From the NCBI GenBank assembly GCA_024231855.1, contig JAAEQD010000106.1:124001-188000 (forward strand): a stretch of 64,000 bases of DNA. The letters are read 5' to 3'. The translations under genes and the position numbers were made by a program. The notes under the pieces are model-generated. The model made no database searches. It was not told the origin of the DNA and was given only the letters and a program-made list of their open reading frames with translations. Origin of the DNA: Candidatus Zixiibacteriota bacterium. GTDB lineage: Bacteria > Zixibacteria > MSB-5A5 > UBA10806 > 4484-95. Positions 7,191 to 52,022 of this stretch are shown in pieces (the first letter of the stretch is position 1; each line of letters begins with the position of its first letter).

Positions 7191-7433
7191 AGAGGGTTAT
7201 TGTATACGGCCTAATTGCGTACATACATACAGATGAACAAAGGACTACGTCCGGCTGCAATCCCCAAATGGGTCCTTCTGTGTATTCATACATGTATTTA
7301 TTAGTGACAGTATCTACTTTAGTTGGCTTAATTTTTCCTTTTGAAGCGTACTACTTCATTAAAAGAAGAATTCGATCTAGAAAAAAACGAGCTAGTAAAG
7401 GTGACCGCTGATTTAGGTGCAGTTATCCCTACC

Positions 7434-8159: not shown

Positions 8160-8716
8160 TTGTCTTTAAACTTCTCTTTCTCCTGCTCGGCAACATCGGT
8201 TACCTTGCCGGCGACATCGCTTAATATCTCCAGTTCCTGAAGATTGCGATCGGCTTTCAGGCCATAGCCGGTCAACAGGTCGCCATCGGTTTTTTCGATT
8301 TCTACGTAGTCGTCGGTGGTAATCAGGCCGGTTTCGGGGTCCCAGAACAGCGATTCGGTTTTCAGCACGGTTGAATCCTCATTGATCGCCACCACGTTGC
8401 CGAACATCGCCACTTTCTCCGATTTCTCACGAATCAATCCCCGATTGGCGGTGAGCGTCGATTTTTGCCCGCCCTGGTCATCGAAGAATAGTACTTTTAT
8501 AGTATCAGCTTCGGTTGAATCTTCCCTCACCCAGCGATCTATATGTTCGGCTTCAATCGTTATGTTCTGTTTGCCATCCTTGGTAAATACAATAGTGGCG
8601 TCATCGAGACGGGAATCCGGGTAGTTTTCATCGGCCACATTCTGCTGGGGCGGCTCGGGTTCCGTGCAGGCCAGGAACGCCATTGTTGCTATCAATAAGA
8701 TGATTACTGTTTTCAT
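8156..8716 (-). CDS. lptC: LPS export ABC transporter periplasmic protein LptC
   Basis: Lipoprotein-like N-terminus [17 protein letters not shown], beta-rich OstA/LptC-like sequence, 4-nt overlap with lptB. Confidence 0.8.
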
Positions 8717-21948: not shown

Positions 21949-22150
21949 ACAAATCCTGTGTAACCTAAAAAAGCGGAAGCAATCCGTTGGCTTAAGCAGA
22001 CTGCCGTAATTTAGGCCCTCAAGACAATCCTGCACCACCCCATAAACCCTACCCCGAAACCGGCCGATATATTAATAATACCCGTAATCCGGCGTAATGC
22101 CGGAAAATCACCGATTACTGAAATATCGAACCCGAAAGGGGAAAATCGAA

Positions 22151-22421
22151 ATGATGAAAATGACTTTCAAATATATACCAATCGCCCTGTTTGTGATTTG
22201 TGGGCTGGTACTTCTTTCATGTGGAGCCACCCAGAATGAGCCGGGACGCACCTACTATTCGGATTATCATTTCTCTATCGTCTTCCCATCGGGTTGGCAG
22301 GTGGAACAGGAGCCGTCCGAGCTGATGGTGGAAGCCTGGGAGGATTATGTCAACGATAATGACATGTTCGAGGAGAACATGAATATTACCTATGAAAAAC
22401 TGACGGAAAAAACTTCGCTGG
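22151..22421 (+). pseudogene. 5' fragment of a lipoprotein gene duplicated at 27232-27771
   Basis: Long near-identical stretches to 27232-27500 (GRTYYSDYHFSIVFPSGWQVEQEPSELMVEAWEDYVND); then jumps to MCP sequence. Confidence 0.85.
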
Positions 22422-22610
22422 CGTCAGATTGCCACCGCCTCAGAAGAGCAATCGGCAGCGGTCGAAGAAATATCCAAGAATGTGGAAAACGTCGACAGGG
22501 TCAGTAAAGACTCGGCCAGTAACGCCGTTGAGGCCGCTAACTCTGCCGAAGAACTCAACCACCAGGCCGAGGAACTGAGATCACTGGTTGGAGGATTTAA
22601 GCTGAGTTAA
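22422..22610 (+). pseudogene. 3' fragment of a methyl-accepting chemotaxis protein gene
   Basis: Translates [62 protein letters not shown], matching the C-terminus of the 24852-26873 MCP. Confidence 0.9.
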
Positions 22611-22636
22611 TTACATCATCAATAGAAAACCAATAA

Positions 22637-22678
22637 TTCCGGCGGGCTGAGTTTGATCGAAGCCCGCCGTTTTTTTTT
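22637..22678 (+). terminator. Rho-independent terminator retained after the MCP fragment
   Basis: CGGCGGGCTGAGTTTGATCGAAGCCCGCCGTTTTTTTTT; homologous to 26901-26940. Confidence 0.8.
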
Positions 22679-22689
22679 ATATCCCAGAT

Positions 22690-24851: not shown

Positions 24852-26873
24852 GTGATTAAGAATATGAAAATGGGAATGAAGCTAATTATCATTTTTCTCC
24901 TGATCGGCTTAATGCCAATGGTTATAATCAGTTGGTTGACGTTGTCAAAGTCCCGAATCGCGCTGGAGGAAAAAACGAACGATCAGTTAACGTTTATACT
25001 CGATGTTAAAGCGGAGAAAATAACCAATTACTTCAATAAGCTAAATCAAGACCTCGCAGTGCTTTCGAAAACCGGGGATGTGGTAATCGCGTTCAGGTCG
25101 CTAAATGCTTACTATGAGGATATGATGTTCGAACCGACCGATCCTTACGACATTTCAACCTCGGATTACAAAGAGATATACACTGATAAGGGCACGATAT
25201 TCAAAGAGTATATGCGCGAATATGGCTTTGAGGATTTGCTCTTAATCCATGGCGAATATGGCCATGTAATGTATTCCGGGAAGATGGGCAAAGATGCCGG
25301 TACGAACCTTTCCGCCGGAGAATATAAAAACTCCATTCTCGCTCAGTTGTGGAAAAATGTCGTGGACAAGAACGAGTTTTATGTCACCGATATCGGTAAA
25401 TATGAACCGCTTGACGGGAAACCGGCGATGTTCGCCGGGTCACCTATTATCGATGGCAGAGGTAATGTCATCGGCATGACGGCGATTCAAATCAACCTGA
25501 ATCATATAAATAGACTCATTCAGGAGACGGCCGGCGATAGCAAGACCATAAGATCTTATCTTGTTGGTCATGATGGAATTTTGCGTTCGGAATTGAATAC
25601 ATCCCAAGATGGTTCGATTTTGGGTAGAAAAATAGAATTCAGCTCGGTTGAGGAAGCCCTGGCTGGAAAAAGCGGTTCACATCTTACAGATGACTTTGTT
25701 GGGGAATCCGTGCTTTCGGCATATGCTCCACTGAGTGTTGGAAATAATGATTGGGCTATTCTCACTGATATAGCTGCCAGCGATGCTTTTGCCGGAATTA
25801 ACGAGATTAGAAATTACATTATCATATTGGGATTAATTCTCGCTGTTGTCGTAGCCGTCGCCGGTTCTCTTTTTTCCAGGGTGATTATCAATCCTGTCTC
25901 CAAGATGGTCGAGGCCATTAACAAATTCGCCCAGAACGATCTTACTTACAGAGTCGAGATTGATTCGAAAGATGAGTTGGGTCAGATGGCCAGAGTTCTT
26001 AATGACGCTATCGATACTCTACATATGACGGTTTCCCGAATAAACGATAGCACCGAGCGTGTCGCCGGCGCCGCCCGGGGTATTACTACCCTGTCAGACC
26101 AGCTTTCCGCCGGTGTCAAACATCAAACCGATCAGACCGCCCAGGTGTCGGTGGCTATGGAAGAAATGGCGGCCACTATTACCGAGACAACCAAAAATAC
26201 CACCAGTGTCGCCGAAAAGGCGCAAGACGCCGCCTCCAGATCACAGGATGGCAGCCGCCTGGCCGAGGACACATCCAGAGGGATGGACAGTATTGTCAGC
26301 GCCACCGAAATTACGACCTCCAATGTTCAGAACCTGGCCGAAAAAGCGAATGAAATCGGCGAAATTATAAGGGTAATCAACGATATAGCCGATCAGACCA
26401 ACCTGCTGGCCCTGAATGCGGCTATCGAAGCCGCCCGCGCCGGTGAACAGGGACGAGGATTCGCGGTTGTGGCAGATGAAGTTCGCAAACTGGCCGAACG
26501 TACCACCCAAGCTACCCAAGAGGTGGCTGATACGATTAAGGGAATTCAGGCTGATGTCTCCGGTACGAATACGCAGATAGAGGAAGCCAGAGAACTGGTC
26601 GGCAGCGGTAAGGAGCTGGTGGAGAAAACCAATGTCTCCCTGAATGAGATATACACATCGATTGAGGATGTCCAGGATATGATCAGGCAGATCGCGACGG
26701 CCTCTGAAGAACAGTCTTCGGCTGCCGATGAGATTTCCAAGAACGTGGAAAATGTCGACAAAGTCAGCCAGGACTCATCCAGCAACGCCTCAGAAGCTGC
26801 CAAATCCGCCGAGGAGCTAAAAAACCAGGCCGAAGAGCTGAGATCTCTGGTCGGAGGATTTAAGCTCGAATAG
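24852..26873 (+). CDS. Methyl-accepting chemotaxis protein (Cache-like sensor, HAMP, MCP signal domain)
   Basis: Two TMs; hairpin tip [42 protein letters not shown]. Confidence 0.95.
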
Positions 26874-26900
26874 CACTAGCATCAATTGAAAACTACTAAT

Positions 26901-26940
26901 CCCGGCAGGCTGAGTTTGATCGAAATCTGCCGGGATTTTT
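26901..26940 (+). terminator. Rho-independent terminator after MCP
   Basis: CCCGGCAGGCTGAGTTTGATCGAAATCTGCCGGGATTTTT. Confidence 0.75.
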
Positions 26941-26972
26941 CATACCGCTTATAAGGTTTCATAAGAATAGGC

Positions 26973-27116
26973 AGTCATTGCGAGTGAGTTCGAAGGACGA
27001 CCACGGCTGGATGCAGTCCTTGGCTCATCTGTAGGATCTATAATCAGAAGTAATGCTATGATGCTAACAGATTGCCACGTCATCCCGCTTTGGGCGGGAT
27101 TCCTCGCAATGACTAC
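26973..27116. repeat. CATTGCGAGG...GCAATC-type extragenic repeat pair
   Basis: GTCATTGCGAGTGAGTTCGAAGGACGACCACGG and AGATTGCCACGTCATCCCGCTTTGGGCGGGATTCCTCGCAATGAC; same family as 51541-51588. Confidence 0.7.
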
Positions 27117-27231
27117 CGATTTCGATATATCCTATCCCCAAAATAAACCCCGCCCAAAACCGGCCGATATACATATAAATACCTTAAAATCGCCTAGCAC
27201 CGAATTATCGAACCCGAAAGGGGAAAAGCAA

Positions 27232-27771
27232 ATGATGAATACTTCACTCAAATATATCACAATCGCTATGATCGCGGCCGGTGGGTTGATATTTCTTTCA
27301 TGCGGTGCCGCTATAAATGAGCCGGGACGCACCTACTATTCGGATTATCATTTCTCTATCGTCTTCCCGCCGGGCTGGCAGGTGGAACAGGAACCGTCGG
27401 AGCTGATGGTGGAAGCCTGGGAGGATTATGTCAACGATGATGACATGTTCGAAGAAAATATGAATATCACCTATGAAAAATTAACCAAAAAGACAACCCT
27501 GGAAGCATATTACAGCGAGGTCAATCGCAACTCACGGATGGACCTGGCCAACTTCGTAGTTGAGAAAGAAGGCGAGATCACAATCGATGGCCAACCGGCC
27601 CGGGCGATACGATCGACTTTCACGATGGCCGAGGGCGCTCTAAGGATGATAGGCTACGTGACTATCAAGGATGATCACGCTCTCACAATATCCTGCCTGA
27701 TGGAACCCGCCAAATACAGTCATTACCACGAGATATTCAAGGCGGCGGTTCACAGCATCAAGTTCGAATAA
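27232..27771 (+). CDS. Putative lipoprotein with PsbP/DUF1795-like fold
   Basis: Lipobox-like LIFLSCG; YHFSIVFPPGWQVEQEP. Start at 27232/27235; the ORF-track start at 27058 lies in the repeat. Confidence 0.7.
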   Translation: MMNTSLKYITIAMIAAGGLIFLSCGAAINEPGRTYYSDYHFSIVFPPGWQVEQEPSELMVEAWEDYVNDDDMFEENMNITYEKLTKKTTLEAYYSEVNRNSRMDLANFVVEKEGEITIDGQPARAIRSTFTMAEGALRMIGYVTIKDDHALTISCLMEPAKYSHYHEIFKAAVHSIKFE

Positions 27772-27997: not shown

Positions 27998-30358
27998 TCA
28001 CTCGCAATTCGGCCAGCCGGGGGGCGCCGATGGCGGTAGATCATCCGGAGTCGACCAGATCGTTGGGTAATCCTGGCACCAAAGCATAGAGCCCATTCCC
28101 CGGAAATAACCAACAAGTTTGGTCACATCACTACCGATAACCAGACAATCGCCGTTGGCATCAGCCGAGCACCAGAAGCCATCAAACTCACAGCGTTGGC
28201 TTGAGGGCATACCTCGCATAAAGCTAACAAGATAGGTGACATCGCCACCAATAACCATTGGCGGCCAGGCGCCGTTGTACATGTTAACATCACCGGACAG
28301 GTATTGATAGCCTTGCCCCATCACAACATTCAATTCTGTAGTATCGCTTTCTGTAATTACTACTCCGGTAACCGTCGTGTCGATGTTGTTATGACGGGAG
28401 AAGGATATATCATATGCATCCGGCGCAATGTCCGGTATCTCATATTCACCATCAATATTTGTATAGATCGACTCCGGGTAAGCGTGGCCATTGATTGTTA
28501 CAAAAACATTTTCGATAGGATTTAAAAGAGCATTTGTGACGACTCCATTTAATACGCCTGAACCGATCATCATGATATTAAGCTCTGTATGATCTCCGGA
28601 GGAAACTTCTAACATGTCGGTAACATCAACATACATAGGGTGACTGAATTCGATCAGAGACAGGCCGGGATCGAGTCTATCAAGATAGTATTCGCCAAAT
28701 TCATCGGTTGTGTCCGCGAGATCGGGATAGTCGGCCAGGGTAACCTCCACGCCGCTGATCGGCCCGTAACCGGAATGAGTAACAGTCCCGCCAACAGATC
28801 CAAAGTAGGCTAGAGAAATATTAAGTTCTGTTGTATCGTTAGTCAAAGCCTCTACGCCATCGGCGAGGTAATCCACGTATTCCGGGTGAAAAAACAAAAT
28901 GTCATGATATCCGTCTGTTATCCAGTCGATAAAATACTCGCCCACGGAGTTGGTGGTATCGGCGTCATCCTCATATCCCTGAACCCGCGCCACAACTCCT
29001 TCAATCAATTCGTAATCCATATTTATTACTTCGCCCCTTATATAAGATGCCGCGTTGAGCATGATATCCGCGTAAGTCGTGTCATCATGCATTACCATCA
29101 CATCCGCCACTACGATATCTATATACGAATCATGACTGACTGATATATCGTATCGCCAGGGAGCATCGAGGTTATCGAAAAAGTAGGCACCATCGGGGCC
29201 GGTAGTATATAACAATCCCAAACTATCGATACCAACAGACGCCCCGGAAATCGGGTCCCCTAAATAATCCTGAACAGTACCCGATAAATCTCCATATCCT
29301 AAAAGCTGCATAAAGTAAAGCGCTCCCATGTCTGCCGGCGAGCCATCCGGGTCTAAAGGGCTGACCGGATCGCCGGCATCTATGCAGGGAGAATCAGAAG
29401 TTAAGTTAAAGTCGTTAGTGGCCGGATCAACAAACAGCGGATCGTCAAAAATATTACCCTCCTCCGGGACAATATCATCATAGGGACCGCTCTCATTGCC
29501 GAAGAAACAATTATACAGAAGGTGAAAATTACTGCCTTCTTTTCTGGTAAATCCGTACAGAGAGTTGCCATAAAAAATGTTGTTTCTGATATAAGTATCC
29601 GTTGAATAATTGCCGTCGGTGAAAATTCCCCCCGCGACCGTGGGTGCCGTATTATCGCAAAACGTGTTGTTTTCGATTATTCCGCCATTGGCATCTATTC
29701 GCATAGCGCCGCCGGCCAAACCGGCATGATTTTCATATACAATATTATGAGTGAATATGAAAGAAGCGCGAAGCGCGTGAAAACACGCGCCATTATTTGA
29801 AGTTGTATTGTTATAGATATAGTTTGAATCTATGAGTGCCTGATGATACTCATCGCAATCTGTTCCGGCCAGGCCGCCGCCGTGTGTGGCATAGTTGCCG
29901 CGGATGATATTATTCCTTATTATCGGCGCGGCGTTATTGGCGAACTGGATTCCACCGCCGTACCAGGAATCGTTGTTTTCGATGATACAGTATTCGATTA
30001 CCGGCGAAGAAGCATCGCAGGTTATTCCAGCGTGATTGGAATTTCTCACGGTGAATCCGCTTAAAACCGAATATCCATCTTCCCCCGACGAGAAATTCAC
30101 GATAGTTTGATCATCGAACACTTTTTCGATGACCGCCATTTCAGCGCCGTTTTCGCTGATAAGCCTGACAGCCCCACCCAGAAAATCGATATGCTCGGCA
30201 TATATGCCATCGGCAACCAGTATCGTATCGCCATTAATCGCGGCATCGATACCGGCCTGAATGGTGGGCTGGTCAGCCGGGATGTTTATGACGGTAGCAT
30301 CGGCCGATGAGCCAATAAACATAACCAGGCCAACGATAAATATAGCTAATTTTCTCAT
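27998..30358 (-). CDS. Secreted right-handed beta-helix protein with CarboxypepD-reg-like repeats and dockerin-like C-terminus (paralog A)
   Basis: Signal peptide; INIPADQPTIQAGIDAAINGDTILVADGIYAEHI; repeated G.V....PI.GA.V modules; GDVNMYNG...GGDVTYLVSFMRG...ADANGDCLVIGSDVTKLVGYFRG. Confidence 0.85.
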   Translation of the reverse strand: MRKLAIFIVGLVMFIGSSADATVINIPADQPTIQAGIDAAINGDTILVADGIYAEHIDFLGGAVRLISENGAEMAVIEKVFDDQTIVNFSSGEDGYSVLSGFTVRNSNHAGITCDASSPVIEYCIIENNDSWYGGGIQFANNAAPIIRNNIIRGNYATHGGGLAGTDCDEYHQALIDSNYIYNNTTSNNGACFHALRASFIFTHNIVYENHAGLAGGAMRIDANGGIIENNTFCDNTAPTVAGGIFTDGNYSTDTYIRNNIFYGNSLYGFTRKEGSNFHLLYNCFFGNESGPYDDIVPEEGNIFDDPLFVDPATNDFNLTSDSPCIDAGDPVSPLDPDGSPADMGALYFMQLLGYGDLSGTVQDYLGDPISGASVGIDSLGLLYTTGPDGAYFFDNLDAPWRYDISVSHDSYIDIVVADVMVMHDDTTYADIMLNAASYIRGEVINMDYELIEGVVARVQGYEDDADTTNSVGEYFIDWITDGYHDILFFHPEYVDYLADGVEALTNDTTELNISLAYFGSVGGTVTHSGYGPISGVEVTLADYPDLADTTDEFGEYYLDRLDPGLSLIEFSHPMYVDVTDMLEVSSGDHTELNIMMIGSGVLNGVVTNALLNPIENVFVTINGHAYPESIYTNIDGEYEIPDIAPDAYDISFSRHNNIDTTVTGVVITESDTTELNVVMGQGYQYLSGDVNMYNGAWPPMVIGGDVTYLVSFMRGMPSSQRCEFDGFWCSADANGDCLVIGSDVTKLVGYFRGMGSMLWCQDYPTIWSTPDDLPPSAPPGWPNCE

Positions 30359-30378: not shown

Positions 30379-32745
30379 TTACTCGCAGTTCGGCCAGCCT
30401 GATGGAGCATCATCGGGGAGATCATCCGGGAGCGGCCAGGCAGGAGGGTAATCGGGACACCAGGTCGGATGACCCATTCCCCGGAACATTCCAACCAGCT
30501 TGGTGACATCACTTCCAATTACCAGGCAATCGCCGTTGGCGTCGGCGGATGCCCAATAGCCATCTAATTCACAGGGGATACTTGTTGGCAGACCACGAAA
30601 ATAACCCACCATATAAGTCACATCGCTGCCGATACACATTGGCGGCCAAATCCCGACGTTCATATTGGCATCACCGGCAAGGTAAAGATACTCAGGCACC
30701 GGCATCATTTGCATATCCAGCCAGGTCGTATCATCGGGCGTAATTGATATGTCGGTTACAGTCGTATCAAAAAAGCCAGCGCGACTAAAATATACCTGAT
30801 AGACACCCTCCGGAATATCATCGATTTCATATGAACCATCAAAATAGGTGTCGTCAGATAAAAAGGGCGGGCCGCCCTGGACCTCTACAAGGGCGTTTAA
30901 TATCGGAGATAATAACGTGTCTGTTACGGTTCCGGCAAGAACACCATAGCCTAAAAGGATGATATCAAACGTAGTGGTATCACCGGCAATAATCTCAATA
31001 TCAGTAATATCCTCGTCAACGTACAATGGGTGGCTAAAGGAAATCCCATATATCCCGGGATCAATATAATTAAGTTCGTATTCTCCAAGAGCATCAGTGG
31101 TGTCGGTAAAATCCCAATACCCCTGTAAACTTACGATGATCCCTTCAATCACTTCAAGACTTGAATTAGTAACCGTCCCGATAACATGACCGGTATACTC
31201 CATCGTTATATTAACTTCGATAGTATCATTTGGCAATGCTTCGACATCCTCAACCAGATAGTCTACGTATTCAGAATGAGAAAACGAAATATTATAGATA
31301 CCGTTTATCAGCCAATCGACAAAGTACTCGCCCAGTGATCCAGTATTGGTGGATTCGCTTAAACTGTCGGTTGTTTGTATTAATGCCCCTTCAATAGGCA
31401 TGCTATCCGGATTTGAGACAACACCCCTGATATATGATGGCGCGTTCAGAACAATATCAACATAAGTAGTATCATCATTACCCATCCAGACCTCGTTTAA
31501 AATCGTATCGAAAAATGATTCGTGACCGACCGACAATTGATATATCCAGGGGATTTCCAGGTTATCGAAAAAGTAAACACCATCCTGCCCGGTGATAAAG
31601 TTCAACACCAAACTATCGATACTGACGGTAGCTTCCGGTATTGGGTTACCGAATAAATCCCGAACCACACCCGTTAAATCTCCACTGCCCGTAAGCCACT
31701 CGAAATAAATTGCCCCGATATCGGCGCGACTGCTATCGGGATCAAGCGGCGAATTAGGATCGCCGGCATCAATGCAGGGGGACGCGGGCAGTAAATTGAA
31801 ATTGGCATTAATCCAATCAACCAATAAAGGATCCTCATAGATGTTCAAACTGTCGTCGTCATTCACTAAACCATTTCCATGTAAACAATTATACGCGTTA
31901 ACAAATTCGCCACCCCAGAAACGCATACCTATTCGCTCATTAAAAGCGACTATGTTGTTAATTAAATTTAAAAAACCCTGTCTTTCCCTCAGGCCAACTT
32001 CCACCGCCAGGTAATTTGTTGAGTTGTTAATTATTGTATTATTGGTAACACGCGAGGTATCCTGATATTCCAGATATACTACCCCTTCTCCGGTATTATC
32101 GTAGATGAGGTTACGAATTGTGTGTGTGCAGCTATAGCGGGTATATATACCTCCGGCGGCATCGCCGATGTTTTCGTAAATAGTATTTGAATCTATAATT
32201 AACAAGCTCGCGTAGTACGCGTAAATTCCCCCGATATAATAGCCCGATCCCGCGTTGCTTACATTAGATCTAATGATATTATTTCTTACCACTATCGGAT
32301 TCGAGCAATAATTTACGGTTAAGGCGCCTCCTCCAGAGGGTACGGAATCATCTTTAGTATTGTATTCGATAATATTGTTTTCGATTTTTGCCGATCCGCT
32401 ATCGCAGAATATCGCGGTAGCCGTCGCGTTTCTGATCGTAAAACCTTTTAGCGCAGAGGTCGAATCCTCGCCGCTGTTGAATGTCACCAGTGGGGTAAAT
32501 TCGATATCCTTTTCGAGAACCGTCGATTCGGCCCCGTTCTCGCCAATTACAATGATAGCCTTGCCGAGAAAATTAATATGCTCCCGATACACCCCATCGG
32601 CAACCAGAACCGTATCGCCATTAATCGCGGCCTCGATACCGGCCTGAATCGTGGGCTGATCAGCCGGGACATTGATAACGGCGGCGCTCGCCAGCGAACC
32701 GGCAATTATAACCAGGTTTACGAGAATTATAGTTAACTTGCTCAT
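30379..32745 (-). CDS. Secreted right-handed beta-helix / CarboxypepD-reg / dockerin-like protein (paralog B)
   Basis: Same architecture as 27998-30358; 20-bp gap to paralog A suggests co-transcription. Confidence 0.85.
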   Translation of the reverse strand: MSKLTIILVNLVIIAGSLASAAVINVPADQPTIQAGIEAAINGDTVLVADGVYREHINFLGKAIIVIGENGAESTVLEKDIEFTPLVTFNSGEDSTSALKGFTIRNATATAIFCDSGSAKIENNIIEYNTKDDSVPSGGGALTVNYCSNPIVVRNNIIRSNVSNAGSGYYIGGIYAYYASLLIIDSNTIYENIGDAAGGIYTRYSCTHTIRNLIYDNTGEGVVYLEYQDTSRVTNNTIINNSTNYLAVEVGLRERQGFLNLINNIVAFNERIGMRFWGGEFVNAYNCLHGNGLVNDDDSLNIYEDPLLVDWINANFNLLPASPCIDAGDPNSPLDPDSSRADIGAIYFEWLTGSGDLTGVVRDLFGNPIPEATVSIDSLVLNFITGQDGVYFFDNLEIPWIYQLSVGHESFFDTILNEVWMGNDDTTYVDIVLNAPSYIRGVVSNPDSMPIEGALIQTTDSLSESTNTGSLGEYFVDWLINGIYNISFSHSEYVDYLVEDVEALPNDTIEVNITMEYTGHVIGTVTNSSLEVIEGIIVSLQGYWDFTDTTDALGEYELNYIDPGIYGISFSHPLYVDEDITDIEIIAGDTTTFDIILLGYGVLAGTVTDTLLSPILNALVEVQGGPPFLSDDTYFDGSYEIDDIPEGVYQVYFSRAGFFDTTVTDISITPDDTTWLDMQMMPVPEYLYLAGDANMNVGIWPPMCIGSDVTYMVGYFRGLPTSIPCELDGYWASADANGDCLVIGSDVTKLVGMFRGMGHPTWCPDYPPAWPLPDDLPDDAPSGWPNCE

Positions 32746-34736: not shown

Positions 34737-37418
34737 ATGACCAGGATAATGATTTTCAAATGCATGAAAAGCGCGTTGTTGATATTAGTAACGTTTATCG
34801 CGTTCACGGGATTGATAAGCAATTTATATGGTTTTGATAATCCGTACATCGGGGAGAAAATACCCCGATCCCTGCACAGTATAATCAGCCTCGATTTAAA
34901 CGAAGTGACCTTAGAACAAGCCCTGAAGGAGATCTCGGAAAAGGGCGGATTTGAGCTGAATTACAACAGAAACCGTATCCCGCTGGATAACAGGGTTACA
35001 GTAGTTACCAGTGAAACCAAAGCGATAGAAGCGTTGGCGGTGGTGCTGGATCAGTCCGATGCCGGACTTCATTTTACCGAAGAGGGCCAGATAGTGGTGG
35101 TGCCGTCCTCGGTGAAAGATAATAAAGGTTCGATAACCGGTAAAATCAGCGATGCCGAAAACGAGGAAGCCTTGCTTGGCGCGTCAATTGAACTTCTGGG
35201 CTATCGTCGGGGAGCTGTTTCGGATATACAGGGGACATTTATAATTCCGGATGTTAATCCCGGCGCTTATAATTTGAAAATAAGATGTATCGGATATGAA
35301 ACGAAAATACTGGAAAATGTACAGATCGGTGACTCGGAGACCGCTAATTTGGATGTACCGCTCGTTAGACAGCCGATTCAGCTAAAGGAAATTGTAGTCA
35401 CGCCCGGGACTTTCGCGATAATGGAATCAGAGACATCGGTTAGGCAGTCGCTTACGCGAGAAGATATCGAAACAGTGTCACAGCTTGGTGAGGATATTTA
35501 CCGGGCGGTTAACCGTCTGCCGGGAATCGCCTCCAACGATTACTCTTCCCAGTTGAGAATCCGGGGCGGCGAACACAATGAAATACTGGTTTTACTGGAT
35601 GGCATGGAGCTGTATGAACCTTTCCATGTTAAGGATGTCAATGATGGTCTCATTAGTATAATCGATGCCGAGGCGGTGGAGGGTATCGATCTGATGACGG
35701 GTGGATTCACCGCCGATTACGGCAATCGGCTTAGCGGCGTTTTCAATATAAAAACAAAAAAACCTAATCAAAAAATAAAGTCTTACAGCCTGGGCGCAAG
35801 CTTGATGAACCTGCGTTTCATGACCGAGGGGACTTTTAAGGATAATAAGGGCAACTGGTTTCTTTCCGCCAGACGCGGATATCTCGATATAGTGCTTAAA
35901 TTGATGGGTGAAGACGAAGCGCCCAGCCCCAAATACTACGATATATTGGGCAAAATCGAACGCCAGCTCAACTCAAGGCAAACATTGTCATTGAGCGTAC
36001 TTCACGCTGATGATGAAATGAGTGAAAGCGACGAGAGGGGTTTATATAATTTCGCCTCTAGCTATGGTAATTCGTATGCCTGGCTGACACTTAAATCGCT
36101 TATTAGTACTCGCCTTTATGTCCATTCCATATTCTCTGTCGGTCAAATAATAAAAAACAAGGACGGATTCGACAGGTTCTCCGTCGAGCGTTTTCCCTCG
36201 AAATTTGAAATGAGCGAGAAGCGTAAGTTCGATATGGCCGGTATCAAGCAGGACTGGCAATACGAGCTTACCGACAACATCTATTTGAAATGGGGCGCGG
36301 AATATAAGTCATTTTCATCGGAGTGCGGGTATGATAGCTACCAGGCTCTTTCGGAATATGACCAATCGGGATTTAACATCTATGATTCGATCTCGACTCA
36401 TATCACCGCGGACGTTGACGGTTACGCCGTCAGCGGATATCTTTCGAATCGATTTAAAATATTGGACCCGGTCGCTATCGAACTGGGGATTCGTTATGAT
36501 AAATCATCTTATTCAAAAGATGAGGACGTGAGTCCGCGGGCAAATGGAATGTTCAAGCTCGGACCTAAAACGTTTTTACGATGGGGCTGGGGTAAATTCT
36601 ACCAACCTCAAGCGATTCACGAACTGGACGCCGTTGATGGCGTGGCCACATATGGCCGATCCGAACTATCGGAACATTGGACTGCCGGATTCGAACATAC
36701 ATTGCCCAAAGGCATTCAATTGAGAGTCGAAGCGTACCATAAAGAGTATTCCCGATTACGGCCAAGTTACCGGAACTGGGAAAAGGGTATAGAATTGGTT
36801 CCGGAAGTCGAATATGAGCGGATAGAGGTTGTTCTCGACTCGAGAATCGCCAAGGGACTTGAAATTTTTGCCAAGAAAGATGTGGGCGGTAAATTCTCGT
36901 TTTCGGCAAGCTACGCTTTAGCTTACGCCGATGAAGAAATCGATCATATAAATTTCCGCGAAGGTACCACTCCGATTCCCTATAATAGATCAACGCCATC
37001 TCCCAACGATCAGCGTCACACGATCGGCTGGGATATGAATTACCGGCCCGGTGATGACTGGACGCTAAACGTTTCCTGGTCGTATCATTCGGGCTGGCCA
37101 TACACCGGATATATCGCCCGGCACGTGGATGATACCACCGGAAATTATTACACTATTGAAAACACCCGGTATAACGCCTTAAATTTCCCCGCTTATCACA
37201 AACTCAACCTGAGAGCGACGAAGCGATTCAATACCAAGAAGGGTCAATACAAGCTGTTTCTAGAACTGATCAATCTATACAATCACGATAACATTTATAA
37301 TTATAACCTGGAGAGCTTTACAGTTGACCGTAATGGTGTTCCCCACTTGGGCTACGAGGAAGAGCACTGGTTCCATCTGCTGCCATCGATAGGCCTAAGC
37401 TGGAACGGGAATTTTTAG
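34737..37418 (+). CDS. TonB-dependent receptor with N-terminal STN and CarboxypepD-reg domains
   Basis: STN-like LDLNEVTLEQALKEISEKGGFELNYN; ITGKISDAENEEALLGASIELLG; plug SSQLRIRGGEHNEILVLLDGMELYEP; C-terminal barrel ending NF. Confidence 0.92.
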   Translation: MTRIMIFKCMKSALLILVTFIAFTGLISNLYGFDNPYIGEKIPRSLHSIISLDLNEVTLEQALKEISEKGGFELNYNRNRIPLDNRVTVVTSETKAIEALAVVLDQSDAGLHFTEEGQIVVVPSSVKDNKGSITGKISDAENEEALLGASIELLGYRRGAVSDIQGTFIIPDVNPGAYNLKIRCIGYETKILENVQIGDSETANLDVPLVRQPIQLKEIVVTPGTFAIMESETSVRQSLTREDIETVSQLGEDIYRAVNRLPGIASNDYSSQLRIRGGEHNEILVLLDGMELYEPFHVKDVNDGLISIIDAEAVEGIDLMTGGFTADYGNRLSGVFNIKTKKPNQKIKSYSLGASLMNLRFMTEGTFKDNKGNWFLSARRGYLDIVLKLMGEDEAPSPKYYDILGKIERQLNSRQTLSLSVLHADDEMSESDERGLYNFASSYGNSYAWLTLKSLISTRLYVHSIFSVGQIIKNKDGFDRFSVERFPSKFEMSEKRKFDMAGIKQDWQYELTDNIYLKWGAEYKSFSSECGYDSYQALSEYDQSGFNIYDSISTHITADVDGYAVSGYLSNRFKILDPVAIELGIRYDKSSYSKDEDVSPRANGMFKLGPKTFLRWGWGKFYQPQAIHELDAVDGVATYGRSELSEHWTAGFEHTLPKGIQLRVEAYHKEYSRLRPSYRNWEKGIELVPEVEYERIEVVLDSRIAKGLEIFAKKDVGGKFSFSASYALAYADEEIDHINFREGTTPIPYNRSTPSPNDQRHTIGWDMNYRPGDDWTLNVSWSYHSGWPYTGYIARHVDDTTGNYYTIENTRYNALNFPAYHKLNLRATKRFNTKKGQYKLFLELINLYNHDNIYNYNLESFTVDRNGVPHLGYEEEHWFHLLPSIGLSWNGNF

Positions 37419-37452
37419 TGGGGTGCTATAACTCGCCATTAATTCAATATTG

Positions 37453-39801
37453 CTATTCACACCCCGGCCAGCCATCCGGGGCTTCGGCCGGCAGATCATC
37501 CGGAGTCGACCAGGTCGTTGGGTAATCCTGGCACCAAAGCATAGAGCCCATTCCCCGGAAATAACCAACAAGTTTGGTCACATCACTACCGATAACCAGA
37601 CAGTCGCCGTTAGCATCAGCCGAGCACCAGAAGCCATCAAACTCACAGCGTTGGCTTGAGGGCATACCTCGCATAAAGCTAACAAGATAAGTAACATCGC
37701 CGCCAATAACCATCGGCGGCCAGGCGCCGTTGTACATGTTGACATCGCCGGGCAGGTATTGATAAGCTTGCCCCATAATAACATTGAGTTCGGTGGTGTC
37801 GCTTTCTGTAATTACTACGCCGCTTACCGTCGTATCGATATGGTTATCGCTGGAAAAAGAGACTTCATATGTGTGTGGTATGATATCCGCTATCTCATAC
37901 TCACCATCGATATTTGTATAAGTCGATACAGGGTCCGGAGTACTTTCAATAGTTACCATCACGTTTTCGATTGGGGCTAATAATGTATCAGTGACAACTC
38001 CATTTATTGTACCCGAGCCGTACATGAAAATATCAATCTCGGTATAATATTCGGGAATGACCTCAACGGCCGCCATCTCATCAACATATAACGGATGACT
38101 GAAATTGGCTATGTAAAGGCCCGAATTGAGGCTATCGATATAATATTCACCCAATTCATCGGTTGTGTCCGCTATGTCCGGATAGTCAGTCAGGCTAACT
38201 ACAACGTCGCTAATCGGCTCATGGCTGGAAGTGGCAACCGTTCCACCAAAAGAGCCGGTGAGAGCCATGACTATATCAAGTTCCGTGGTGTCGTTAGGTA
38301 AAGCTACAACATCATATTCAATATGGGAGGAATAATTCTGATGAGCAAATAATATACTATAAGTGCCATTAATTATCCAGTCGACAAAATACTCGCCCGA
38401 AGAGTTGGTTGTGTCGGTATCATCCCAATATCCATAAACATGCATCATAGCGCCTTCAATCGGTTCGTAAGCCGTATTGGTCACAATGCCCCTTACATAT
38501 GACGGCGCGTTGAGTACGATATCGACGTATGTCGTATCATCATTCATCACCATCGCATCGGTTAATACGGTATCGAAAAAAGAATCATGGCTGACCGAAA
38601 TATCATATTGCCAGGGAGCCTCAAGATCATCGAGAAAGTAAACGCCGTCAAGATCAGTGGTATCACTTATACCCAAGCTGTCGATACTAACAACAGCCCC
38701 GGAGATCGGATTTTGATTGATGTCAGTTATTTCACCGGCTAAAACTCCATAGCCCAAAAGCTGCATAAAAAAGAGCGCCCCCATATCGGCCCGGGTACCG
38801 TCAGGATCAGATGGAAAGTTGGGATCACCGGTATCGATACAGGTCGAGCCGAAGGTTAAGTTATAATTATCGTTAACCTGATCGATAAATAGCGGATCAT
38901 CATAGACATTACCTTCCTCAGGCGTAACGCCCACTATGTCGCCATCGGTATTACCATGAGCGCAATTATAAGCGACATGAACATTAGTAGCGTCCCTGGC
39001 GAATATCCCGATTTTATTATTAAACGCGACGATGTTGTTTTTAACTTTGATATAACCTGTACCCCACTGCAGAAAGATACTCCCGGCCTGGCCGGCAGTA
39101 GAATTAGTATTGTCGACAATGGTGTTGTTGTAAATTGTAGAATAGTCCAGGGCATTGGTATATGTAATAGCGCATCCCCAGGAGGCTGTATTTCCGTATA
39201 TGATGTTGAAACTGGATTGCGTGCAGCACTCGAGAGTATAGATGCCTCGACCACTATTTAAGTAGATTTTGTTAGATTCAATTATCAATAATTCCGCATA
39301 CAGCGCGTGAACACCGCCGGCGACACCATCATTGTACCTCATTATGTTATTTCTTATGATAATAGGAGCAGTGGAATTATTAGCTGAAATCGCCCCATCA
39401 TACGGCCCAACGATGTTGTATTCGAGTATATTATTTTCGATTTTTGCCGAGCCGCTGTCGCACTTTATCGCTGCCGTTGTGGCATTTCGCAATGTGAACC
39501 CGCTTATCACCGACATTGAATCCTCACCGTTTTCGAAAGTTACTAACGGGGTAGATTCAGTTTGTTTTTCGATAATTGTCGTTTGGGCGCCGGATTCACT
39601 TATGACAACAATTGCCTTACCAAGAAAATCCAGATGCTCCGGGTAAATACCATCGGCAACCAACACAGTATCGCCATTAACCGCGGCATCGATGCCAGCC
39701 TGGATGGTGGAAAAATGATAGGGTATATTTATTGTGGCGGCCCCGGCCGTTAAACCAGCAATCATAACCAGGCCAACGATAATTATAGCTATTTTTACCA
39801 T
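37453..39801 (-). CDS. Secreted right-handed beta-helix / CarboxypepD-reg / dockerin-like protein (paralog C)
   Basis: Same architecture as paralogs A/B. Signal-peptide start MVKIAIIIVGL chosen over the MPAF start at 39831. Confidence 0.85.
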   Translation of the reverse strand: MVKIAIIIVGLVMIAGLTAGAATINIPYHFSTIQAGIDAAVNGDTVLVADGIYPEHLDFLGKAIVVISESGAQTTIIEKQTESTPLVTFENGEDSMSVISGFTLRNATTAAIKCDSGSAKIENNILEYNIVGPYDGAISANNSTAPIIIRNNIMRYNDGVAGGVHALYAELLIIESNKIYLNSGRGIYTLECCTQSSFNIIYGNTASWGCAITYTNALDYSTIYNNTIVDNTNSTAGQAGSIFLQWGTGYIKVKNNIVAFNNKIGIFARDATNVHVAYNCAHGNTDGDIVGVTPEEGNVYDDPLFIDQVNDNYNLTFGSTCIDTGDPNFPSDPDGTRADMGALFFMQLLGYGVLAGEITDINQNPISGAVVSIDSLGISDTTDLDGVYFLDDLEAPWQYDISVSHDSFFDTVLTDAMVMNDDTTYVDIVLNAPSYVRGIVTNTAYEPIEGAMMHVYGYWDDTDTTNSSGEYFVDWIINGTYSILFAHQNYSSHIEYDVVALPNDTTELDIVMALTGSFGGTVATSSHEPISDVVVSLTDYPDIADTTDELGEYYIDSLNSGLYIANFSHPLYVDEMAAVEVIPEYYTEIDIFMYGSGTINGVVTDTLLAPIENVMVTIESTPDPVSTYTNIDGEYEIADIIPHTYEVSFSSDNHIDTTVSGVVITESDTTELNVIMGQAYQYLPGDVNMYNGAWPPMVIGGDVTYLVSFMRGMPSSQRCEFDGFWCSADANGDCLVIGSDVTKLVGYFRGMGSMLWCQDYPTTWSTPDDLPAEAPDGWPGCE

Positions 39802-39855
39802 AACATACTCCCTAGAAATAAAGGCTGGCAAAGAGCGATATGATCATACAGGCTT

Positions 39856-39920: not shown

Positions 39921-40088
39921 TATCATCTCCTGGAGCTGATCAATCTCTACGACCACGACAACGTATACAACTACGACCTGCAAAATGTCTATGTCGACCG
40001 CCAGGGGAACCTCCATATGGATTACGAGGAAGAGCACTGGTTCCATCTACTGCCCTCGATAGGCATAAGCTGGAGCGGTGGGTTTTAA
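39921..40088 (+). pseudogene. 3'-terminal remnant of a second TonB-dependent receptor gene
   Basis: Translates LLELINLYDHDNVYNYDLQNVYVDRQGNLHMDYEEEHWFHLLPSIGISWSGGF*, matching the 34737-37418 C-terminus (LELINLYNHDNIYNYNLESFTVDRNGVPHLGYEEEHWFHLLPSIGLSWNGNF). Confidence 0.92.
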
Positions 40089-40148
40089 GGGGGGGCTTAG
40101 GGGGGAAGGTTCAAACCCAAAGCCAACGTTTTAAAGAATACAAGTAGC

Positions 40149-42578
40149 TTAAAAGCCGGTTTTTTTTGGCCCGGAAATAACCATATCCAGAGGCATATTT
40201 CTGACCGCTAGCACATAATTCTCTTTATACATTATTGGATCTATTTGAAAATCCCAGCCTGATTCAGACCTTTCCGACGATGTGAGTCCTGGGGAAATAA
40301 TATGGAACTCGGCTGTACCTTTTTTATAATTCACCGTCCAGACACCCAGGGACAGATCTTCGACATTTCTAATCTTATCAGAAGTCCATATAGTTTCGAT
40401 GTTTTTATTAAACTTATCATCAATTTGTCTTGAACATCGATTCGCCCCGGATTTTAATAAAGAATATGCTTCAATTAAAGTTGGCAAGCGCCATTTTTGG
40501 TATCTATGAGCAATATTTTTATTAAAACTTTCAATAATACCTGAAGCTTCAATATAGTTAACCTCGCAATTTGAACCACGCGAATACCAAATTAGGCCGG
40601 TGGAGTAATCAGCAACTTGTGCAGAGTCTATTATTATAAAATCATTGATAATAGCTGCTCTGTCACTATTGGCCAAAACTGGAGATATTGTAATACCACC
40701 GGAATCAAAATCCGCAATAATGGTTTCTCTATCATAATTAGTTAATATTTGAGACACAATAACTCCACTGGAATCAAAATCCGCACTAAGGGATTCCCTT
40801 TGATAATTAGTCAACACTCGAGGTACAACGATCCCGCGGTTACCGATATAAGAAACAGTTGATTCAAATATCATCTCTGTTTCTTTGTCATTAAGGAATA
40901 TTATTGGTGTACGAAGTTCATAAAATGTTTTACTTCGAATTGAATTTATAACTTTTGTGAATTTAACAGACGCATCTAAAGAATCCATATACTGATCATT
41001 GTTATCGTAGGCCTTAATTAGATAAGACATCGCTTCCGAGGTGTCTGATTTGCGAAACCCGTTAATCGATTTTAACATACATGTTTGTGAGAATTTATAT
41101 GGGTCAGGGCTATTAACTATAAACGCATAATTTAAAAATGTATTAATTACACTATCAACCCCGCCACCTATTGCGGCTAATGCTTTTTCATTAGGCGTTC
41201 TCGCATAATTCGAATATATCTTTGCGAGACTATTTAATTCATTTGGTCTGTTTTTAAAAATAAACCATTCATTCAATTTTGCTATCATTTCCAGAGCAGT
41301 TTCATTCTTCCAAGTTTGACTACCAATTGAAGGTATATATAATTCTTTATTTGTTAGTTTGCTGGCGGAAAACATGGATAAAACTGTAAGCATTATTATA
41401 GTGGCGATAACTACAACTGGTTTTCCAAAAATTCTTGCGATTACATCCAAGGGTGACAATCCTTTATAACTATATATTTCCTCATAAATCTTAGGCCATA
41501 CATGATTCCTATATTTATCTTTTTCCTTCTTAATCTGAAACCCTTTATAAACCCAATTCTCCTCTTTTTCTTTCTCAACTTGATACTTCAAAAAACCTCT
41601 ATACTTTTCTTTTTCTTCCTCAACCTGATACAATAAATCACACTTGAGCATAATATTTTTTGTTAAATTGTCTAAGTCCGGTTTGAGAATCATGTCCTCA
41701 TCCTTAGCAGCAAGATCCTCGCCAAAACTATAATAAGGGCGATATTGAATGAAATTTTCCTTTAAATATTTCAGATTCTTATCATAAAAATTATAAGGCA
41801 AATAATTTTGTAATAGACTTGCGGCTTTATTCATCCAGAAGTCATTTCTATTTTTCTCGGTGATATCAATCCGCGATGGAACCAGCATCAAATCAGGCGG
41901 ATTTTCACGGTCTGTTTGGGTTGTTGAATTCAACGTGATATCCTTGGCGATTTTCCTAATACCAAGTATATTTTGTTCATTAATGGTAAAAAGCAAAGCA
42001 ACCATATCGGGAACCTGCATAGTGCAGATACCGCCAATATCGGTAATACCGGTTCTGCTGTCTATCAACACAACATCTGCATACTCGCGGAATTTTCCCT
42101 TTAAATAGTTTATAAAATCATCACCAAAGTAGCTATCATAAAAATCCTGCCAGTCGAAATTGTTGACTCTGGAGGCGTATTTTCTATCCTGACGGCCTGC
42201 AGGAATAAATGAAATCGGTAAGCCGTTAATAAAACTTTTGGGGATAGGTACGGTAAATTGATCAAGGTTGATAAAGCCATCGTCAATTTTACCGACATCT
42301 TTGCCAAGGAATTCCTTGTAATAGTCAAATAAATCCAATACCCCCGATGTTACTTCCTCGTCTTTTAGCCCAAAAAACTTATGCAGGCCGGGAGCCTCAA
42401 GATCCCAATCCACCATAAGTATTCGGCGCTGGGATTTATCTCCTATTAGATAATCATGGTCAGCCAATAGCCAGGCAACATTGGCCAGTGCCATGCTTCG
42501 GCCAACGCCGCCTTTATAGGAATAAAATGTGATAATTTTACCGGATTTTTGCGAGTTTTTTAGCATATTTTCTTTCAT
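40149..42578 (-). CDS. KGGVGR-motif MinD/ParA-like P-loop ATPase with TM segment, 3x23-aa repeats and DUF1566-like C-terminus
   Basis: TFYSYKGGVGRSMALANVAWLLA, MVDWDLEAPGLHKFF, VVLIDSRTGITDIGG; TM VVVIATIIMLTVLSMF; C-term DYSTGLIWYSRG...WRLPTLIEAYSLL...IWTSD...YVLAVRN. Confidence 0.85.
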   Translation of the reverse strand: MKENMLKNSQKSGKIITFYSYKGGVGRSMALANVAWLLADHDYLIGDKSQRRILMVDWDLEAPGLHKFFGLKDEEVTSGVLDLFDYYKEFLGKDVGKIDDGFINLDQFTVPIPKSFINGLPISFIPAGRQDRKYASRVNNFDWQDFYDSYFGDDFINYLKGKFREYADVVLIDSRTGITDIGGICTMQVPDMVALLFTINEQNILGIRKIAKDITLNSTTQTDRENPPDLMLVPSRIDITEKNRNDFWMNKAASLLQNYLPYNFYDKNLKYLKENFIQYRPYYSFGEDLAAKDEDMILKPDLDNLTKNIMLKCDLLYQVEEEKEKYRGFLKYQVEKEKEENWVYKGFQIKKEKDKYRNHVWPKIYEEIYSYKGLSPLDVIARIFGKPVVVIATIIMLTVLSMFSASKLTNKELYIPSIGSQTWKNETALEMIAKLNEWFIFKNRPNELNSLAKIYSNYARTPNEKALAAIGGGVDSVINTFLNYAFIVNSPDPYKFSQTCMLKSINGFRKSDTSEAMSYLIKAYDNNDQYMDSLDASVKFTKVINSIRSKTFYELRTPIIFLNDKETEMIFESTVSYIGNRGIVVPRVLTNYQRESLSADFDSSGVIVSQILTNYDRETIIADFDSGGITISPVLANSDRAAIINDFIIIDSAQVADYSTGLIWYSRGSNCEVNYIEASGIIESFNKNIAHRYQKWRLPTLIEAYSLLKSGANRCSRQIDDKFNKNIETIWTSDKIRNVEDLSLGVWTVNYKKGTAEFHIISPGLTSSERSESGWDFQIDPIMYKENYVLAVRNMPLDMVISGPKKTGF

Positions 42579-43255
42579 TAGCTAAAACTAGGCGGTGTTT
42601 TTGATGATTGTCTTTCGTTATCCCTCTTAATCACATCTAGTACTTTATTAATAGTTTTTGAATTTAATTTTTTATCTTGGGGATCAATAAATCCCATATT
42701 AATGAAATTATAAAGCCTATTTAGAGAATGTACGATTTCATGATGTTTCCCTAAATAGCTCGCATCGTATGGAGGTCGCCATGTAGCCTGCAAATAAGAA
42801 TCGAGAATTTTAATTGTTGAAGAATCGAATTCGTCAGGTATAATCATGCAGCAGTTTGTGAAATTTTTGATATGATCGCCAATCTTCGTAGCAAGAGTTT
42901 TATAGGCTGGATTGTAAGTAGCAAATGCATCAATAAAAATGAGTTTGATATTTGAACTTTGAAGGCGTAAGATATCTGACTCGGTACCCTCTATTATATT
43001 TTTAATCGTGGCACATTTGGACTTAAAGCACGGATTCAATTCTCTTAAGATTTCACACAGGTATTCATCGCCGAAAGGTTGCCACTTTTCAGCATCCATA
43101 CCATAATTGAATTCTAATATCGAATCCAGCTTTTTGCCCAGCTCATTATTTGCGGATGTCTGATCTTCTTGGGCCAGGAAATCAACAATTTTCCGAGCCT
43201 CGTTTTGATTTAAAGCTATGATAGCATAGCCGATTTCATCTTCTGGTTTACACAT
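42578..43255 (-). CDS. Uncharacterised soluble protein in the KGGVGR operon
   Basis: TAATG coupling to the downstream ATPase gene and 8-nt overlap with the upstream gene; alternating beta/alpha pattern around KLIFIDAFATYNP and CCMIIPDEFD. Confidence 0.75.
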   Translation of the reverse strand: MCKPEDEIGYAIIALNQNEARKIVDFLAQEDQTSANNELGKKLDSILEFNYGMDAEKWQPFGDEYLCEILRELNPCFKSKCATIKNIIEGTESDILRLQSSNIKLIFIDAFATYNPAYKTLATKIGDHIKNFTNCCMIIPDEFDSSTIKILDSYLQATWRPPYDASYLGKHHEIVHSLNRLYNFINMGFIDPQDKKLNSKTINKVLDVIKRDNERQSSKTPPSFS

Positions 43256-44099
43256 TTTGATACTTTATCTTAAGAATCCTAAATGCTTGAATCTCATTTT
43301 TATTGTTATTATATAGATCTTTTGCAGCAGCGCTTTTCATTATATCATGTTCCCTGAAATAAGCTTCATAATAGCTCAATGCTGTATCGTCATCACCGTT
43401 GATGTCATTCAAGTATTTCCTCACAATTTCGAGCTCGTCCTTAAGCGAGTTTAATGATAATCTGATAAAATATCCGGCTTCCACGATGATATTTTCGAGA
43501 CATTCTAAAATATCAGAAATCGCTTGAATCTGTTTTCTGGTTTCACTAAGATTATGTTCGTTCCAAATACTACTTGATCCGAATTCCCTTTTGAATTTTT
43601 TAAAATCAGATAAACTATCTACCAGTTTTTTGCCGGGTATCAAAGGTAATTGGCTGCCCTTGATCAGAATCCCCATGAACAGGATCGACGATAGCACAAG
43701 GCTGACAATTGCAAGTAGAAACGACTTTGCCAAATAGATGTAGTTAGTCGATAAAACATCACTAAAAGTAAAGTTTCCCTTGATGACTCCTGCTAAAAGG
43801 CAGATTGCTGTACTTGCCAGGAGAATCATAAAGGCGGTAATTAGACTTCTCCAGTAAAGATGACGTTTTGATAAATACCAAGCACGGCATTTGGTTTTTA
43901 TTAGCAAATATAGGATTATAATCGGCAGCGGGGAAGCGATTAGGGCATAAATTATATTTGGTGCTTCCACATTTATCTTTACCTCTTTGGCGCCCAGAAG
44001 CGAGAATGTAGCTGGCAGAGCCCCATATAAAATCAAACCCCAGGCTCGAAGCCCCGCTAAATCATCTATTATCATCAATACTTTTCTTAAGATGGCCAT
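43248..44099 (-). CDS. Four-TM membrane protein with cytoplasmic helical tail, first gene of the KGGVGR operon
   Basis: Four hydrophobic segments in the first about 170 aa, then a charged helical region. Confidence 0.75.
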   Translation of the reverse strand: MAILRKVLMIIDDLAGLRAWGLILYGALPATFSLLGAKEVKINVEAPNIIYALIASPLPIIILYLLIKTKCRAWYLSKRHLYWRSLITAFMILLASTAICLLAGVIKGNFTFSDVLSTNYIYLAKSFLLAIVSLVLSSILFMGILIKGSQLPLIPGKKLVDSLSDFKKFKREFGSSSIWNEHNLSETRKQIQAISDILECLENIIVEAGYFIRLSLNSLKDELEIVRKYLNDINGDDDTALSYYEAYFREHDIMKSAAAKDLYNNNKNEIQAFRILKIKYQNV

Positions 44100-44311
44100 G
44101 TTGATTTACTGAAAGATCTAAAATCCACTACTAATGATGCATTAGCATCTTAACAATCTGAATCTTATACAATATAATAAATGTTAATCTAAACATGCAA
44201 ACAATTAATTACGATTTAATCGGACATAAGAAGTTAATAAACAGCAATAATCAGGGAATTATATAATTAAACAGATATGTGATATAGCTAGGCATGTTGT
44301 TGAAAACAATC

Positions 44312-44383
44312 TGAGGGTGGAAGGGATCGAACCTTCGACCACCTGCTTAAAAGGCAGATGCTCTACCACTGAGCTACACCCCC
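44312..44383 (-). tRNA. tRNA-Lys (anticodon TTT)
   Basis: GGGGGTGTAGCTCAGTGGTAGAGCATCTGCCTTTTAAGCAGGTGGTCGAAGGTTCGATCCCTTCCACCCTCA: complete cloverleaf, loop CTTTTAA. Confidence 0.95.
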
Positions 44384-44505
44384 ATAAAGGCACAGACTAC
44401 GAAAATAGAAAATTTCGCTTAAGTGTCAAGTCAAATCTATACAATTTATCGCGAAACAGTCTATAATTCATCTAACTCAAATTTATCTGACTAATTTAGA
44501 GATTT

Positions 44506-51494: not shown

Positions 51495-51540
51495 ATAATT
51501 AATCCGATATAGCTATCTAATTGATAATTAATAAAGCCCT

Positions 51541-51588
51541 GTCATTGCGAGGAATCCCGCCCCAAGCGGGATGACGCGGCAATCCGTA
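51541..51588. repeat. CATTGCGAGGAATCCCGCC...GCAATC extragenic repeat
   Basis: GTCATTGCGAGGAATCCCGCCCCAAGCGGGATGACGCGGCAATC; same family at 51922-52022 and 26973-27116. Confidence 0.75.
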
Positions 51589-51611
51589 TCGATTCCAGGA
51601 GAAACTTTATT

Positions 51612-51899
51612 CTATAATCTTTTATATAAATCCAGCCAATCAGGATTGAATTTATCTATAAGCTCGATTTTCTTCTTTCGTGAGCCGGCTTTGATCTGTT
51701 TTTCTCTGGATATCGCGTTATAAGGATCATCGAATATCTCATAGTAAACTAATTTATCGAGATTATATCTTTTCGAAAATCCTTTGGTAAGTTTGTTTTT
51801 ATGTTTATAAACGCGTTTTACAAGATTTCTTGTTATACCGGTATAGAGAACGGTATTGTTTTTATTTGTAATAATATATACGTAATAATTTTGATTCAT
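51612..51899 (-). CDS. GIY-YIG nuclease family protein
   Basis: YVYIITNKNNTVLYTGITRNLVKRVYKHK...YYEIFDDPYNAISREKQIK. Confidence 0.92.
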   Translation of the reverse strand: MNQNYYVYIITNKNNTVLYTGITRNLVKRVYKHKNKLTKGFSKRYNLDKLVYYEIFDDPYNAISREKQIKAGSRKKKIELIDKFNPDWLDLYKRL

Positions 51900-51921
51900 T
51901 TTATCATTCTGCCGATTTTTA

Positions 51922-52022
51922 ACGGATTGCCACGTCGCTTCGCTCCTCGCAATGACAGCCTTCTTTTAATAAAACGTCATTGCAAGGAATTCAGCCCCAA
52001 GCGGGATGACGCGGCAATCTGT
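51922..52022. repeat. Two further copies of the CATTGCGAGGA-type repeat, one inverted
   Basis: ACGGATTGCCACGTCGCTTCGCTCCTCGCAATGACAG and GTCATTGCAAGGAATTCAGCCCCAAGCGGGATGACGCGGCAATCTG. Confidence 0.75.

Follow-up and report, generated by a model that had tools for sequence, protein, structure and literature searches.

A TIR-less FxsC-C/KGGVGR ATPase operon with an added four-transmembrane protein in a Candidatus Zixiibacteriota genome: a candidate conflict system

The subject of this analysis is a three-gene operon in a 64,000-nucleotide stretch of DNA (the window) from a Candidatus Zixiibacteriota bacterium (assembly GCA_024231855.1, contig JAAEQD010000106.1, positions 124,001 to 188,000). 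The three open reading frames (ORFs) lie on the minus strand, and positions below are those of the window. The first gene (43248-44099) encodes a 283-aa protein with four transmembrane (TM) segments, here called the 4-TM protein. The second (42578-43255) encodes a 225-aa protein, and the third (40149-42578) an 809-aa KGGVGR-type MinD/ParA-like ATPase. The first two genes overlap by 8 nt (43248-43255) and the last two by 1 nt, in a TAATG at 42578. These ORF coordinates agree with a preliminary description of the sequence, which had proposed that the three genes are coupled.

The same trio is present in other genomes. When 85,462 species genomes were scanned with an alignment of 11 KGGVGR sequences, at least 595 candidates emerged, and the 80 best loci were retained. 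The best hit, locus L045 from an Anaerolineales metagenome-assembled genome, has the identical order of a 4-TM protein, a 219-aa protein and an ATPase. Its 4-TM protein (L045:139-1029, 296 aa) is 30% identical to that in the window over 288 residues (E 2e-25), its middle protein is 31% identical (E 2e-22) and its ATPase about 51%. A third copy, in the Anaerolineae genome G189 (L127 and L139), keeps this order, with the first two proteins complete and the ATPase cut short. Its 4-TM protein carries a PKD domain in the loop that joins TM3 to TM4, its middle protein has 224 aa, and its ATPase, of the KGGLGR type, is present only as an N-terminal part that ends at a stop codon beside the contig end. 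Overall identity across the three loci is 24-32% for the 4-TM proteins and 18-29% for the 225-aa group. In a tree of ATPase domains, the window and L045 sequences pair with support of 0.98; the G189 fragment was too short to place. Co-occurrence in other genomes was a check named in the preliminary description, and because L045 and L127/L139 keep the same gene order, the trio exceeds chance and is a real but rare unit. It occurs in 1 of 133 genomes of its own phylum and in 2 of 396 sampled Anaerolineae. A search of 386 Acidobacteriota with a 4-TM profile gave no match, no relatives of the trio were found in viral contigs or plasmids, and none of the ATPase in phages. A match to the 4-TM profile in genome G401 was rejected as an unrelated sensor-like protein.

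The 225-aa protein had been left without an assignment in the preliminary description. Judged by profile comparison, it is a standalone, divergent domain that is remotely homologous to the C-terminal domain of FxsC (FxsC-C). An alignment of the three trio middle proteins, compared with 46 FxsC-C-like domains taken from KGGVGR loci other than these three, gave an hhalign probability of 96.1 (score 62); 60 column-shuffled control profiles reached at most 13.8 and a reversed profile 11.4. An FxsC-C profile made without the trio sequences found the 219-aa protein of L045 at E 4.7e-6 (4820 sequences), followed by the proteins of G189 (E 0.023) and of the window (E 0.026), and these three outranked all decoys other than FxsC-type genes (next, 1.5). 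The best NCBIfam match of the L045 protein was TIGR04276 FxsC_Cterm (E 8.3e-5), below the curated cut-off of 55 bits. Residues 45-145 of the window protein (42821-43123, minus strand) align with the FxsC-C profile and the protein carries the motif YG..AEKWQPF ... FID, with W58, P60 and D109 invariant across 28 sequences. The TIR-like N-terminal domain of FxsC (NF040588 FxsC_Nterm) was not found in the window trio proteins, and the protein has 225 aa vs about 420 aa for FxsC. Since the TIR half is absent, we refer to it just as an FxsC-C-domain protein and not as FxsC. An AlphaFold2 model predicts an alpha/beta fold with moderate confidence (mean predicted local distance difference test, pLDDT, 74.8). 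A PDB search with this model returned nothing significant (best E 0.09), and so its weak P-loop-like matches were not used; PDB searches with sequence profiles gave no match. Single-sequence searches of genome contigs, plasmids and the own phylum yielded no relative of the 225-aa protein, and a weak own-phylum match (G026) was rejected as an unrelated lipoprotein-like ORF.

The ATPase combines a variant nucleotide-binding domain with a putative membrane anchor and a lectin-like end. Residues 14-214 (41937-42539) match NF047398 AAA_KGGVGR (E 7.3e-45) with 153.6 bits, above the curated cut-off of 90, and contain the P-loop YKGGVGRS (42495-42518) reported in the preliminary description, in which Arg replaces the Walker Lys. 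Among the collected loci, every P-loop counted has the form KGG.GR, a pattern in which the search itself required the R; the DxD, D173 and N200 positions are kept in 11 relatives. Three further features had escaped the preliminary description: a single predicted TM at residues about 388-406 (41361-41417), an Lcl_C (DUF1566) domain with a C-type-lectin-like fold at residues 655-758 (40305-40616; PF07603, E 3.2e-10, 40.7 bits vs a cut-off of 34.9), and, between the two, three imperfect 23-aa tandem repeats (40648-40828; self-match at a 69-nt offset, 72% identity). The suggestion that the family belongs to conflict loci is borne out by the literature, in which KGGVGR-family MinD/ParA-like domains are reported in nucleoside triphosphate (NTP)-dependent conflict systems, where they show coupling to systems of the FxSxx type and are predicted to be inactive (PMC7159879). 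The ATPase also matches the PADLOC candidate PDC-M28B (E 3.9e-24). The fold of DUF1566 is that of C-type lectins, and diversity-generating retroelements often target this domain (PMC6642488); lectin-fold FGS domains have been proposed as invader sensors (PMC8195603). Retroelement-driven diversification of this Lcl_C domain was rejected as a candidate: no RVT_1 match was found in the assembly, and the same search was positive in three control genomes. With no reverse transcriptase in the genome, diversification of Lcl_C here is unlikely.

The 4-TM protein has TMs at residues about 19-37, 49-67, 87-105 and 128-146. TM2 to TM4 exceed the hydropathy threshold, and TM1 was placed through the alignment with the L045 protein, in which TM1 exceeds it. 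These data support the four TMs of the preliminary description. Its long, charged, helical tail is probably cytoplasmic. The positive-inside rule predicts that both termini are inside, and the PKD insertion between TM3 and TM4 of the L127 protein agrees. PKD domains are usually extracellular. The SLATT and S-4TM models gave no sequence match to this family, and its AlphaFold2 model was not usable (pLDDT 42).

Most of the collected relatives of the ATPase are preceded by an FxsC-type gene. We compared the genes that immediately precede KGGVGR ATPases, 88 in all, taken from the best 80 of the at least 595 loci together with plasmid loci and loci of the trio's own class, and including the trio's own. 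Actinobacteria and the closest matches are overrepresented in this sample, and its percentages are therefore not a census. TIR_2 is found in 72 of the 88, FxsC_Nterm in 75 and FxsC_Cterm in 71; a few carry EAD7, MqsA-like antitoxin or HTH domains. Thus the claim of an undescribed system holds in part: the core FxsC-C/KGGVGR arrangement is the usual one in the loci collected, and the TIR-less variant with a 4-TM gene is new. Likewise, the preliminary description had named ATPase homologs without the other two genes as an observation that would count against a unit. The homologs mostly do lack the 4-TM gene, but they come with an FxsC-C domain. Modules at both ends of the pair are swappable. The C-termini of the ATPases carry FGE-sulfatase (L037), pentapeptides (L035), TIR (L034), EAD10 plus an NTPase (L039) or TPR (L045), and the domain preceding FxsC-C is EAD7 in L060 and L087. 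In these two loci from one Anaerolineae genome (L060:4985-6016 and L087:5036-6001), EAD7 is fused to an FxsC-C-like domain before a KGGVGR ATPase; these fusions directly support an adaptor role of FxsC-C. Effectors and effector-associated domains (EADs) are swappable in NTP-dependent conflict systems (PMC7159879, PMC8195603). Relatives of the ATPase have TIR, EAD7, STAND and caspase neighbors. Two other arrangements were seen. In a genome of the same class (G045), a SLATT_1 gene (L035:6207-6755) is divergent beside a TIR and KGGVGR-pentapeptide pair (6841-9840). In L041, L042 and L044, from rhizobial and Massilia plasmids, the KGGVGR ATPases lie directly downstream of MqsA-type antitoxin-like genes.

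The closest known relatives of the trio are the pairs of FxsC and KGGVGR ATPase genes (NF040588 and TIGR04276), either FxSxx-COOH-associated or standalone. As in the trio, the FxsC-C gene is directly upstream of and overlaps, or nearly overlaps, the ATPase gene. Unlike these pairs, the trio has no TIR, a separate 225-aa FxsC-C protein and a preceding 4-TM gene, and its ATPase has a TM and Lcl_C whereas theirs have AP-ATPase and TPR. In Rhizobium beringeri (L037), a TIR-FxsC-C gene overlaps by 4 nt a KGGVGR-FGE-sulfatase gene. This pair resembles the trio in having an FxsC-C gene and a C-terminal module with a C-type-lectin fold, and differs in that TIR is present, a 4-TM gene is absent and FGE-sulfatase takes the place of Lcl_C. 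The EAD7-FxsC-C loci L060 and L087 are similar in placing a TIR-less FxsC-C before the ATPase, and their ATPases group weakly with those of the trio (support 0.575). They differ in that EAD7 is fused to the FxsC-C domain and there is no 4-TM partner gene. PDC-M28B, which the ATPase matches, is itself a candidate only, and the 225-aa and 4-TM proteins match none of the M28 components. The likeness to cyclic oligonucleotide-based antiphage signaling systems (CBASS), SLATT and other small TM effectors is one of analogy, a short multi-TM effector under a signaling partner, and the 4-TM family has no sequence match to them. No radical SAM maturase or FxSxx precursor was found among the neighbors scanned.

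The trio lies in a block that resembles acquired DNA and occupies a variable slot, with no mobile element demonstrated. The GC content of the trio is 35-37%, vs 45.4% for the whole window, and, window ends aside, it is the longest low-GC stretch of the window. The block is bordered by a tRNA-Lys(ttt) gene (44311-44384, minus strand), just upstream of the trio, as the preliminary description had noted. The order of mreB and tRNA-Lys is retained in two family-mates, and the genes after the tRNA differ and are unrelated. At the far border, 165 bp remain of the 3' end of a TonB-receptor gene (39930-40094, plus strand; 74% identity to 37260-37423), a remnant that suggests a past rearrangement. No second copy of the tRNA-Lys 3' end was found in the window, even for the last 14 nt, and no integrase was recognized among the genes flanking the trio, in line with the preliminary description. 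Of the features expected of an integrative element at a tRNA gene, the atypical GC content and the variable slot are present, and the integrase and the duplicated tRNA end were not found.

We tentatively favor the view that the trio was acquired horizontally and is a variant of the FxsC/KGGVGR systems that lacks TIR, and that in it the ATPase would be a sensor and switch, the FxsC-C protein an adaptor and the 4-TM protein a membrane-damaging effector. From the gene order, the domain make-up and the swappable modules of the relatives, we infer these roles as follows. The KGGVGR protein might act as a nucleotide-dependent switch that is anchored through its one TM. Its variable C-terminus (Lcl_C here, TPR in L045 and FGE-sulfatase in L037) could sense a ligand, and we propose that Lcl_C is the ligand-sensing end of the protein. 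If the ATPase domain is cytoplasmic, then the Lcl_C sensor would lie outside the inner membrane. The FxsC-C domain, which we propose is the adaptor, would be the constant part that couples switch to effector. When triggered, the 4-TM protein, the proposed effector, could oligomerize and permeabilize or depolarize the inner membrane, and such damage would lead to growth arrest or cell death, following the logic of abortive infection. The three proteins may form the single membrane-anchored complex that the preliminary description put forward. A stronger form of this proposal, that the 4-TM proteins are a previously undescribed effector family that replaces the TIR NADase and kills by membrane damage under a transmembrane KGGVGR switch with an extracytoplasmic lectin-fold sensor, is possible but doubtful. 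The FxsC-C/KGGVGR core is already known; what is new is that TIR is lost and that a 4-TM family with no database match stands in its place. FxsC/KGGVGR pairs are common (at least 595 pattern matches), and a natural variant without TIR shows that the constant parts are the ATPase and the FxsC-C domain. It also implies that the C-terminal domain of FxsC is an adaptor for exchangeable effectors. The trio could serve as a small three-gene test system, in which the 4-TM family is flagged as a candidate effector.

Several observations weigh against this proposal. The 4-TM protein matched no Pfam, NCBIfam or PADLOC family, and thus no known effector family, and its proposed role comes from operon position alone; it might be an anchor or a receptor. 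The window 225-aa protein by itself reaches no NCBIfam or Pfam model, and its single-sequence hidden Markov model E-value is just 0.026. Which side of the membrane Lcl_C occupies is predicted from a single TM. The trio was found at just three loci, and two of these lie on short contigs. In the literature, we found no demonstrated antiphage function of, or experiment on, FxsC/KGGVGR pairs.

Other explanations give the same genes different roles. MinD/ParA relatives organize membrane-bound patterns, and the 4-TM protein could be a membrane receptor or anchor for an ATPase complex with a regulatory or housekeeping signaling function, such as positioning or envelope sensing, and no killing activity. 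This membrane patterning, the TM and lectin-like end of the ATPase itself, and the PKD insertion in L127, which gives the 4-TM protein the look of an extracellular-binding receptor, would all fit. We nonetheless consider such a function unlikely, since the rare and patchy distribution, the atypical GC content and the variable slot favor an accessory conflict gene, as do the TIR, EAD7, STAND and caspase neighbors of the relatives. We regard as improbable a toxin-antitoxin arrangement in which the KGGVGR protein, or its C-terminal module, is the effector and the other two proteins restrain it. KGGVGR genes in L041, L042 and L044 do directly follow MqsA-type or HTH antitoxin-like genes, and gene order and tight overlap are typical of toxin-antitoxin pairs. 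However, the ATPase has no toxin-like domain, Lcl_C is a binding fold, and the fusion of FxsC-C to TIR in most relatives is more in keeping with an adaptor for an effector than with an antitoxin.

The FxsC-C domain and KGGVGR ATPase are also common to FxSxx-COOH systems (PMC7159879), and the trio could be what is left of such a peptide-modification system, with radical SAM maturation, after the loss of the other genes. This seems quite improbable, because the scanned neighbors include no radical SAM or FxSxx-type gene, the short stretches around the Anaerolineae trio relatives include none either, and many TIR-FxsC/KGGVGR pairs outside the Actinobacteria are standalone (L037, L046 and L047). 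That the three genes are chance neighbors that merely resemble an operon is hardly credible: nothing except the rarity of the trio speaks for it, and it is refuted by the recurrence of this order in three genomes that represent two phyla.

The genes around the trio encode an ECF sigma factor, FecR, a TonB receptor, a dockerin-like protein, MreB, MlaF, MlaE, DnaB and UDG, and a scan for promoters and terminators gave nothing decisive. Elsewhere in the window, an AAA-type ATPase of 806 aa (38-2458, plus strand) lies in a low-GC stretch (0.387) and is possibly a second conflict gene; its PADLOC match, to IetA, is weak (E 0.0012), and it falls in no NCBIfam family. Three secreted paralogs, each about 790 aa long and ending in a dockerin-like region, are encoded on the minus strand (37453-39831, 30379-32745 and 27998-30358); their DNA is up to 74% identical over 1.5 kb, and the family has thus expanded locally. 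Direct and inverted copies of short repeats (about 60 bp, 87-94% identical) occur at 51528-52022 and 27054-27113 and may represent a small dispersed element. Lastly, blocks of 326 and 259 bp at 22096-22681 are duplicated at 26688-27502 with 76-83% identity and their order swapped.

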